From: Modestobacter altitudinis
GTDB taxonomy: Bacteria; Actinomycetota; Actinomycetes; Mycobacteriales; Geodermatophilaceae
Reading direction: 5' to 3'
NCBI RefSeq assembly: GCF_005930475.1
Contig: NZ_SJEW01000034.1
Location: 1-50,713, forward strand
DNA: 50,713 bases
The notes under the pieces were generated by a model. It ran no database searches. It worked only from the letters and a program-made list of their open reading frames with translations, and had not been told where the DNA came from. A program made the translations under genes and the position numbers. Positions 19-4,935 of this stretch are shown here, in pieces. Every line of letters starts with the position of its first letter. Within the stretch, counting starts at the first letter, position 1.

Positions 19-774
<756 letters not shown>

Positions 775-2383: not shown

Positions 2384-2896
2384 ATGTCGACCGACGGGGC
2401 CCGGCTGGACACCCTGGACCTGGCGCTGCTCCGGGCGCTGACCGAGCACCCGAGGGCCGGGGCGCTGGAGCTGTCCCGCCGGCTCGGGGTGGCCCGCGGC
2501 ACCGTGCAGGCCCGGCTGCAGCGGCTGGAGGACACCGGCGTCGTCACCGGGTACGGCCCGGACGTCGACCTGACCGCCGCCGGCTTCGGCGTCCAGGCCT
2601 TCGTCACCCTGGAGATCGCCCAGGGCGCCCTGGGGGACCTGACCGCGGAGCTGGCGGCGATGCCCGGCGTGCTGGAGGCGCACGCGACGACCGGGTCGGG
2701 TGACGTGCTGTGCCGGGTGGCGGCCCGCTCGCACGGCGACCTGCAGCAGACCCTGCTGCAGCTGGGCCGCTCCGCGTCGGTGGTGCGGTCCACGAGCGTG
2801 GTCGCGTTGTCCGAGCTCGTGCCGCTGCGCACGCTGCCTCTGCTGACCTCGGAGGGCGGGCCCCCGGCCCGAGCGCCGGGGCACCGCGGCGGCTGA
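2384..2896 (+). CDS. Lrp/AsnC family transcriptional regulator
   Basis: 170 residues with an N-terminal winged helix-turn-helix ([20 protein letters not shown], then [20 protein letters not shown]) and a C-terminal RAM/AsnC ligand-binding domain (about residues 70-150). The ATG at 2384 has AGGAGG five bases upstream (2373-2378); an in-frame GTG at 2356 is possible but unsupported by a ribosome-binding site. Divergent placement beside hppD suggests it senses an aromatic amino acid or derivative and controls tyrosine catabolism, as neighbouring Lrp-type regulators often do. The C-terminal tail after residue 150 is proline/glycine rich and probably disordered. Confidence 0.92.
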
Positions 2897-2904
2897 TCCG
2901 CCGC
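2886..2904 (+). terminator. Short GC hairpin across the Lrp/AsnC stop codon
   Basis: GCGGCGG (2886-2892) and CCGCCGC (2898-2904) form a perfect 7-bp stem with the TGA stop codon in its 5-base loop. There is no U-tract, as is usual in such GC-rich genomes. It could be a weak terminator or simply GC-rich coding sequence. Confidence 0.3.
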
Positions 2905-2994
2905 CGCCCGGCACGGACGGGCAGGAGGCTGGGAGGATGGGGCGATCGGCCCCGGCACGGGGCCGAGGACGTCGAGATGTGCAGGAGAAGCAGG

Positions 2995-4116
2995 ATGCCG
3001 CAGGGCACGGTCAAGTGGTTCAACGCGGAGAAGGGGTTCGGGTTCATCGAGCCCGACGACGGCGGGCAGGACGTGTTCGCGCACTTCTCCGCGATCGCCG
3101 ACGACGGGGGCTACCGCAGCCTCGACGAGGGGCAGCGGGTCGAGTTCACCGCCAGCCCGGGGGACCGGGGCATGCAGGCCGACTCCATCCAGCCGCTCGG
3201 CGGCGGCGGGCGGCCCCCGGCCCGCGAGGAGCGCGGCCACCGGGACGACCCGCGGCAGGTCCGCGCGCCGCGGGCCGGCCGGGGCGGTGGCGGGTCCGAG
3301 GGCACCGTCCGCTGGTTCAACGCCGAGAAGGGCTTCGGGTTCATCGAGCCCGACGACGGCGGGGACGACGTGTTCGTGCACTTCTCCGCGATCGCCGACG
3401 ACGGCGGGTACCGCAGCCTGGACGAGGGGCAGCGGGTCGAGTTCACCGCCAGCCCCGGGCAGCGCGGGCTGCAGGCCGACTCCGTCCAGCCGCTCGGTGG
3501 CGGCGGCCGGCCGCCGGCCCGCGACGACCGCCGGCAGTCCGCACCGCGCGACCGCGGCTCCGACCGCGCACCGCGCGGCGGCGGCGGCTCGCAGGGCACG
3601 GTGCGCTTCTTCAACGCCGAGAAGGGGTTCGGGTTCATCGAGCCCGACGGCGGCGGGGACGACGTGTTCGTGCACTTCTCCGCGATCGTCGACGACGGCG
3701 GCTACCGCAGCCTGGACGAGGGCCAGCGGGTCGAGTACTCCGCCAGCCCGGGCCAGCGCGGCCTGCAGGCCGACTCGGTGCAGCCCCTGGGCAGCGGCGG
3801 CGGCGGCGGCGGTGGCGGCGGCCGGCCGCCGGCCCGGGACGACCGCCGGCAGAGCGCCCCGCGGGACCGGGACCGCGCCCCGCGGGCTCCGCGCGGTGGC
3901 GGCGGCGGTGGCGGGCAGGGCACCGTCCGCTTCTTCAACGCCGAGAAGGGCTTCGGGTTCATCGAGCCCGACGACGGCGGCGACGACGTGTTCGTGCACT
4001 ACTCGGCGATCGCCGACCGGGGTGGCTACCGCAGCCTGGACGAGGGCCAGCGGGTGGAGTACACCGCCAGCCCCGGTCAGAAGGGCCTGCAGGCCGACTC
4101 GGTGGACCCGCTCTGA
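2995..4116 (+). CDS. Four-domain cold-shock protein with Arg/Gly-rich linkers
   Basis: 373 residues starting at ATG 2995 behind AGGAGAAGC. Four full cold-shock domains lie at about residues 1-68, 103-167, 201-265 and 309-373, each with the RNP1 motif KGFGFIEP and the RNP2 motif DVF(A/V)H(F/Y). Bacterial Csp proteins normally have one domain of about 67-70 residues, so this is a fourfold array. The three linkers (34, 33 and 43 residues) are rich in Gly, Arg, Pro and Asp, share the element [17 protein letters not shown], and resemble RGG-type RNA-binding segments. Domains 2-4 are nearly identical in protein and DNA, pointing to recent internal duplication. It likely binds single-stranded nucleic acid multivalently (RNA chaperone); the DUF72 gene follows 12 bp later and may be cotranscribed. 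Confidence 0.93.
3004..4113 (+). repeat. Fourfold tandem coding repeat (cold-shock domain units)
   Basis: Four repeat units with domain cores at 3004-3198, 3301-3495, 3595-3789 and 3919-4113, spaced about 297, 294 and 324 bases. The segment encoding [13 protein letters not shown] is nearly invariant at the DNA level in all units, and the linker segments of units 2 and 3 also match. Such repeats can expand, contract or be collapsed in short-read assemblies. Confidence 0.85.
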
Positions 4117-4128
4117 CCTGAGCGCCGC

Positions 4129-4851
4129 ATGACGGTCCACGTCGGGACGTCGGGCTGGAGCTACGACCACTGGGACGGCGTGCTGTACCCACCGGGCACG
4201 CCGCCCCGGGACCGGCTCGCGCACTACGTGCGGCGCTTCGGCACCGTCGAGCTCAACGCCAGCTTCTACCGCTGGCCGCGGACGGCGACGTTCGCGAGCT
4301 GGCGGCGCCGGTTGCCGCCGGGCTTCCAGCTGTCGGTCAAGGCCCCCCGCGGGCTGACCCACGCCAAGAAGCTGTACGCCCCCGAGGTGTGGGTCGACCG
4401 GCTGGTGGCCTGCTGGCACGAGCTGGGCGACCGGCGGGCCGTGCTGCTGGTCCAGCTGCACCCCGGGCACGCCCGCGACGACGCCCGGCTGGACTGGTTC
4501 CTCGGCCTGCTGCCCGGCTGGATGCGGGTGGCGGTCGAGTTCCGGCACCCCAGCTGGCACGACGAGGCGGTGTACGCGCTGCTCGAGCGGCACGGGGCGG
4601 CGTACACGGTGATGAGCGGCGCCGGCCTGCCGTGCGTGCTGCGGGCCACCGCACCGTTCGTCTACGTGCGGATGCACGGTCCGGACCCCGCGCACCTCTA
4701 CGCCGGGTCCTACTCGACCGACGACCTGCGCTGGTGGGCCGACCGGGTGCGGGAGTGGTCGGCGTCCGGGCGCGACGTGTTCGTCTACTTCAACAACGAC
4801 GGGCACGGCCACGCCGTCCGCAACGCCGAGGAGCTGCGCGGCCTGCTCTAG
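4129..4851 (+). CDS. DUF72 domain protein (YecE family)
   Basis: 240 residues, typical for DUF72/YecE TIM-barrel proteins of unknown function. Hallmarks are HVGTSGWSYDHW at the N-terminus, VELNASFYRWP, FQLSVKAPRGLTH, VAVEFRHPSWH and the C-terminal VYFNNDGHGHAVRNA. It begins 12 bp after the cold-shock gene stop and probably shares its transcript. It ends just before a strong hairpin separating it from the opposing hutI. Family membership is secure; the biochemical role is not known. Confidence 0.93.
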   Translation: MTVHVGTSGWSYDHWDGVLYPPGTPPRDRLAHYVRRFGTVELNASFYRWPRTATFASWRRRLPPGFQLSVKAPRGLTHAKKLYAPEVWVDRLVACWHELGDRRAVLLVQLHPGHARDDARLDWFLGLLPGWMRVAVEFRHPSWHDEAVYALLERHGAAYTVMSGAGLPCVLRATAPFVYVRMHGPDPAHLYAGSYSTDDLRWWADRVREWSASGRDVFVYFNNDGHGHAVRNAEELRGLL

Positions 4852-4863
4852 TCCTCCTCCCGC

Positions 4864-4905
4864 GCTTTCGCGCGCGAGACCCCGCGCACTCTCGCGCGCG
4901 AAAGC
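4864..4905. terminator. Perfect 16-bp inverted repeat between convergent DUF72 gene and hutI (bidirectional terminator)
   Basis: GCTTTCGCGCGCGAGA (4864-4879) and its exact reverse complement at 4890-4905 are separated by a 10-base loop. It sits in the 84-bp gap between convergent genes. A third, degenerate copy of the arm (CTTCTCGCGCAAGACC) follows at about 4913-4928, so the gap seems built from repeats of one motif. Bidirectional termination is inferred from position and stability. Confidence 0.75.
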
Positions 4906-4935
4906 CCCGCGCCTTCTCGCGCAAGACCGTGGGGG

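Follow-up and report, generated by a model that had tools for sequence, protein, structure and literature searches.

A four-cold-shock-domain protein of Modestobacter altitudinis and its three- to five-domain relatives: a probable multivalent nucleic-acid chaperone

Introduction

Bacterial cold shock proteins (Csps) consist of a single cold shock domain (CSD), according to a passage of a 2021 review (PMC7825780), which is consistent with the preliminary description of the DNA studied here, where they were called nearly always single-domain. What is to be made, then, of a bacterial open reading frame (ORF) in which four CSDs follow one another? Such an ORF, running from ATG to TGA, is present in the soil-type bacterium Modestobacter altitudinis, on a contig of 50,713 bases; this whole contig, one of the 161 in the draft genome, is referred to below as the window. 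The size of the encoded four-CSD protein does not fit that of a classical bacterial Csp (one CSD, about 70 amino acids [aa], a rule taken from the same passage of PMC7825780).

Results and discussion

Four complete domains in one chain

The protein contains four PF00313 stretches (E 2e-107; 351.5 bits against a gathering cutoff of 27), and coordinates, translation and Pfam agree that four complete CSDs, each with RNP1 and RNP2, lie in one chain, as had been noted from the sequence (Table 1). All four are 65 aa long and have RNP1 as KGFGFI and RNP2 as VF[VA]H[FY]. The NCBIfam model NF038236 (Retron Se72-type CSD effector) matched at 139 bits against a cutoff of 82, several general Csp models outscoring it. 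A CSD search of the source genome gave six matches, namely, these four and two single-domain Csps.

The domains had been described as near-identical. They are clearly similar, but the wording is too strong: pairs of CSDs share 53 to 60 of 65 aa (82 to 92%) and 161 to 177 of 195 nucleotides (nt), and each pair has 9 to 12 synonymous codon differences. Units 2 to 4 share 58 to 60 of 65 aa and 172 to 177 of 195 nt among themselves, and unit 1 shares 53 to 59 of 65 aa with them.

Table 1. Positions in the window of the tetra-CSD gene, its parts, its leader and other features mentioned in the text
Feature	Position	Strand	Remarks
Putative nitrilase/amidase-like gene (by reading)	19..774		
Candidate leader hairpin TCGGCCCCG-GCA-CGGGGCCGA	2946..2966	+	28 nt upstream of start, before Shine-Dalgarno
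AGATGTGCAGGAG	2975..2987	+	Kept in 16/17 aligned genus leaders
AGGAG within AGATGTGCAGGAG	2983..2987		Likely Shine-Dalgarno
Tetra-CSD protein gene, complete	2995..4116	+	373 aa plus stop; Pfam
Tandem array (TRF)	3001..4100		Period 297, 3.6 copies, score 1238, well above chance
CSD 1, aa 4-68	3004..3198	+	K-W at start
Linker 1, 34 aa	3199..3300	+	Predicted disordered; pLDDT <50 at aa 70-99
CSD 2, aa 103-167	3301..3495	+	R at position 4 in 15/15 species, W at position 5 in 12/15
Linker 2, 33 aa	3496..3594	+	Predicted disordered; pLDDT <50 at aa 169-197
CSD 3, aa 201-265	3595..3789	+	F replaces W in 13/15 species
Linker 3, 43 aa	3790..3918	+	Gly run; predicted disordered; pLDDT <50 at aa 267-304
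CSD 4, aa 309-373	3919..4113	+	C-terminal end of protein; F replaces W in 12/15 species
Short GC-rich tandem repeat	4859..4928		Unit about 24 bases; just 3' of the DUF72 gene

Fold, key residues and selection

An AF2 model, for which the input alignment was shallow (15 sequences), predicts four five-stranded barrels joined by linkers with pLDDT values below 50 (mean pLDDT 64.7; pTM 0.29). In Foldseek comparisons, single domains aligned with CspE and CspA with TM scores by target of 0.94 and 0.91, rmsd values of 1.0 and 0.9, and identities of 53 and 61%, respectively. The top match of the whole array was to multi-CSD Unr fragments (E 2.4e-09), but with an rmsd of 12.9.

Single-strand stacking positions were mapped with the residue numbering and residue roles that we take to hold for CspB. 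The equivalents of F15, F17, D25, F27 and H29 are invariant in all four domains of 15 species of the genus, and in the same species either F or Y occupies those of F30 and F38. The W8 equivalent is W or F: domain 1 has W throughout, domain 2 has W in most species, and domains 3 and 4 have F in most. The V28 equivalent, within RNP2, is Ala in domain 1 of 14 of the 15 species. The dN/dS ratio per domain is 0.13 to 0.26 across these species, and the domains are under purifying selection. An alignment of the window protein with 14 orthologues shows frames that stay open through linkers of varying length. Judged from these residues, there are subtle position-specific differences, and yet all four domains look able to bind.

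One open chain, four intact CSDs and flexible linkers make a multivalent single-strand nucleic-acid binder the natural reading and support the earlier suggestion to that effect. We consider it probable (about 0.7) that the tetra-CSD protein is a conserved multivalent chaperone binding single-stranded RNA or DNA, with CspA-like OB barrels on flexible tethers.

Distribution in the genus, the family and beyond

Fifteen of the 23 genomes of the genus that were searched encode four CSDs in one frame. The gene has three CSDs in another genome (G004), is frame-broken in G003, has one CSD followed by a stop in G013, and is incomplete in four genomes where it meets a contig end or an N gap (G001, G010, G011 and G020); no such gene was found in G012, a 67% complete genome. 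The G013 gene (L127) has the orthologous start and may be either a single-CSD version or a truncation.

Within the Geodermatophilaceae, a gene with three, four or five CSDs occurs in at least 52 of 96 genomes and in 6 of 12 genera, in one intact frame in at least 47 of those genomes; in five (G001, G003, G020, G042 and G062), an assembly break or a frame break disrupts it. Among the matches listed, the genomes with the gene comprise 18 of the window genus, 20 of Geodermatophilus (g5; three CSDs), 9 of Klenkia (g4; five CSDs), 3 of genus g2 (four CSDs), and 1 each of g3 (three CSDs) and g9 (four CSDs). For the other 44 genomes, from six genera, the best E value was no better than 2.1e-26, so that absence is judged by search score only; their matches, among those listed, are about one CSD long, and one genome (G037) gave no match. 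Since some copies are broken or short and 44 of the 96 genomes show no poly-CSD gene at the search depth used, the gene is not required family-wide. Two of the frame-broken genes (L118 in G003 and L182 in G042) are in one-contig genomes and could reflect either sequencing error in a GC-rich repeat or real decay. At five loci (L116, L125, L126, L134 and L190), a contig end or N gap falls within the gene, as though the repeat breaks short-read assemblies.

Outside the family, the counts are lower bounds because only best-matching loci were examined. An order survey of 91 genomes (10 of them Geodermatophilaceae) revealed tetra-CSD frames with Ala/Pro linkers in at least 6 genomes of other families, and a class survey of 89 genomes revealed three or four CSDs in one frame in at least 6 genomes of other families, one of which (G201) is of the Ala type. 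Of 51 best-matching loci, 6 encode three or more CSDs and 45 encode one. One genome (G256) has an Arg/Asp-linked three-CSD protein together with an apparently Ala-type one, judged by its sequence start, and in G108 a CSD and an Arg/Asp linker are followed by the contig end. The Ala/Pro-linked proteins, which have divergent domains, form a second tetra-CSD kind in other actinobacterial families (L211, L212, L214, L215, L216, L217 and L237).

The search for actinobacterial proteins with three or more CSDs, which had been proposed as a check, thus found them both in the Geodermatophilaceae and in other families. Because three-, four- and five-CSD proteins occur in a large part of the family as well as outside it, the layout is a lineage trait. 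As relatives carry three to five copies, it looks like an old, maintained design.

Age of the array

The preliminary description had attributed the array to recent internal duplication, and the domain relationships contradict this. Among the 60 domains of the 15 congeneric species with four CSDs, 50 have their nearest relative at the same position and 5 have it in a neighbor within the same gene; together, these numbers fit an old array in which gene conversion has acted occasionally. A tree of 119 rows (65 columns, most forks weak) requires 36 changes of the 24 genus-position labels, against a minimum of 23 and a mean of 90.8 for shuffled labels. Judged by this positional clustering, the array predates the species sampled in the genus.

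Another tree, of 111 rows, has unsettled bootstrap support, and its cross-family placements are weak apart from two. In these, the short-type Geodermatophilus and g3 proteins group with f43 proteins, their domain 3 lying with its counterpart in two of these (99/88) and their domain 2 with its counterpart in another (100/81). The two placements suggest that an older three-CSD ancestor may have been common to the short-type and f43 proteins. Window-genus domains were not separated by position in the 111-row tree, in which the genus was represented by G002, G004, G007 and G022, two of them divergent.

Could the repeat number be an assembly artefact, or the array a recent tandem expansion without function? 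The source assembly is a draft, the contigs of G001, G010, G011 and G062 stop inside the gene, an N gap lies inside the G020 copy, and the five domains nearest to a same-gene neighbor are what gene conversion would leave. Yet the same four-unit frame appears in distinct assemblies, including those of one contig (G009) and of two contigs each (G007 and G022), which contradicts assembly as the source of the repeat number, and both positional orthology and the dN/dS range contradict artefact and recent expansion alike. We regard either origin as very improbable.

Linkers and charge pattern

Linker composition was counted in the window gene and in 48 fetched genes with starts and ends that a filter accepted as clean; one gene cut by its contig (G001) was excluded from the charge count. 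Genus linkers consist of 26.9% Gly, 25.3% Arg and 10.7% Asp, and they contain 453 Arg and no Lys, whereas 18 window ORFs selected by GC frame have a K/(K+R) of 0.132. Arg-acid dipeptides in linkers are far above the numbers in shuffled sequences, both in the genus (237 versus 145) and in Geodermatophilus (g5; 365 versus 195). RGG is mildly above shuffles in the genus linkers (41 versus 30.6) and reaches 87 versus 42.9 in Geodermatophilus (g5), and the window protein has four RGG motifs, one of them within CSD 4. The linkers had been called RGG-like; the mild RGG excess partly agrees with this, but the dominance of Arg-acid dipeptides in the shuffle control weakens the RGG-box label, and the linkers are better described as an Arg/Asp mixed-charge type with Gly than as classic RGG.

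The CSDs of these poly-CSD proteins have group mean charges of −5.2 to −6.7 (177 domains), compared with −3.1 for 136 distinct single Csps, a non-random set from loci fetched by similarity to the window protein; related sequences in this comparison are non-independent, and its p value deserves little weight. The linkers have group mean charges of +1.7 to +5.0, with individual Klenkia linkers as low as −4. Acidic barrels hence alternate with basic, almost lysine-free tethers. The Ala-type tetra-CSD proteins are without this charge pattern (CSDs, −3.4; linkers, −0.7), and the charge blocks are therefore dispensable for the poly-CSD layout. Such unusually acidic barrels could weaken nucleic-acid binding, a point against the chaperone reading.

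The charge pattern raises the alternative that the main job of the protein is not RNA unwinding but the scaffolding, through its multivalent CSDs and its linkers of charge-blocked Arg and Asp, of RNA-rich droplets serving storage or protection during stress. The alternation of acidic CSDs with basic linkers, the exclusion of lysine, the enrichment of Arg-acid dipeptides, the Gly runs and predicted disorder of the linkers, and the retention of the layout while copy number ranges from three to five would all suit a condensate scaffold. These are sequence features only, however, and the linkers of the poly-CSD set are short (14 to 84 aa) and poor in aromatics (0 to 2.3%), and the Ala-linker proteins show four CSDs in a chain without the pattern. 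As a main job, condensation seems possible but on the unlikely side. It extends the chaperone reading rather than replacing it; the two can coexist, and condensation stays a live proposal beside the chaperone.

Leader and gene neighborhood

Upstream of the gene, a candidate hairpin precedes the likely Shine-Dalgarno sequence (Table 1). Of 21 genus leaders, 14 have a stem of at least 7 pairs ending 20 to 33 nt before the start, as do 8 of 10 long-type Geodermatophilus leaders; such stems are rarer elsewhere (3/10 short-type, 0/7 Klenkia and 0/3 g2 leaders); dinucleotide shuffles of the leaders average 3.2 to 4.6 pairs. Stems at a similar place differ in sequence between subclades, and an arm-swap comparison, biased because each stem was picked for its own pairing, shows only such differences between groups. 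The stem counts suggest that a leader hairpin may be conserved, a suggestion to be taken with caution in such GC-rich DNA. Folded as a whole, the leader does no better than shuffles (z −0.93). No promoter or terminator consensus was found at positions 2800 to 4200, in a search limited to the promoter types that the consensus describes, and Rfam gave no window match at gathering score.

The immediate neighbors are HPPD, Lrp/AsnC and DUF72 genes, the DUF72 gene starting 12 bases past the stop of the CSD gene, and just beyond it lies the short GC-rich repeat listed in Table 1. HPPD, AsnC and DUF72 also flank the gene at four other genus loci (G002, G003, G008 and G022), and ten further genus loci have the nitrilase/amidase-like gene in their flanks. 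For other genera, the flanks examined, which reached about 5 kb at most, contained none of these four neighbors, and we rejected them as functional neighbors of the window gene.

Another neighbor bears on a third possibility, that the array of CSDs serves as a coat for single-stranded DNA or aids a repair helicase in the Geodermatophilaceae. A gene for a large Lhr-type helicase adjoins the short-type three-CSD gene at 11 of 11 loci (L174, L176, L183, L187, L191, L195, L197, L198, L200, L201 and L205), and an Fpg/Nei-like glycosylase gene is nearby at 10 of the 11. However, a search of flanks of about 1 to 2 kb at 21 window-genus loci gave no Lhr match, nor was one found at five f37/f43 loci, and Lhr-type helicases may also work on RNA. 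A DNA-repair role is less likely than either chaperone activity or condensation, and we think it improbable.

Proposed function and significance

Under the preferred reading, that of a multivalent chaperone, each barrel would bind a short unstructured stretch, weakly. The tethers would let the four barrels of one chain grip one long RNA or single-stranded DNA, or bridge several, and engagement of several barrels would give high avidity and would unfold or package transcripts. The charge blocks would probably favor association with RNA and with other copies of the protein. A role under stress (cold, drying or DNA damage) is plausible in the Geodermatophilaceae.

The natural three-, four- and five-domain versions are a ready series for asking whether multivalency adds avidity, unfolding or condensation to an RNA chaperone, and the linker charge pattern leads to a specific, testable prediction. 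It is further suggested that tandem copies of a conserved domain may persist for long periods, with position-specific residues and occasional homogenization. As a wider and rather speculative proposal, which we consider unlikely as a whole, these proteins would form an unrecognized actinobacterial poly-CSD class of three to five domains that reached RNA multivalency independently of animal UNR, with their acidic barrels and their Arg/Asp tethers free of lysine acting as charge-block scaffolds that condense with RNA under drying, cold or radiation, and with a leader hairpin that may let the protein tune its mRNA.

Comparison with known systems

Each domain of the tetra-CSD protein has the same fold, RNP1 and RNP2 motifs and stacking residues as the single-domain Csps (Escherichia coli CspA and CspE and Bacillus subtilis CspB; PF00313). 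Unlike them, the protein has four domains per chain, linkers rich in Arg, Asp and Gly, and about twice the negative charge per domain. The Ala-linker tetra-CSD proteins (f10, f15 and f36) likewise carry four CSDs in a single open frame (343 to 466 aa) but differ in their divergent domains and in their Ala/Pro linkers without a charge pattern; in the 111-row tree, their domains cluster by their own position, with support for domains 1 and 2 of 100/99 or more where listed.

Tandem CSDs are also found in UNR/CSDE1, an animal RNA-binding protein, and the likeness is one of general design only. The match to UNR is weak (E 6e-4, over part of one CSD, versus 7e-22 for CspA), the best matches are bacterial Csps, and the sequence search found no homology to UNR/CSDE1 beyond the CSD itself. 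The linkers of the tetra-CSD protein, unlike those of UNR, are predicted to be disordered. Convergence between the two is likely.

The excerpts of open-licence PMC literature that were consulted describe no bacterial protein with three or more CSDs. The closest bacterial case described in those excerpts is CspD of Caulobacter crescentus, a two-CSD protein (PMC4830024). Likened by description, it too has more than one CSD per chain, but it has two, compared with the three to five of the proteins reported here.
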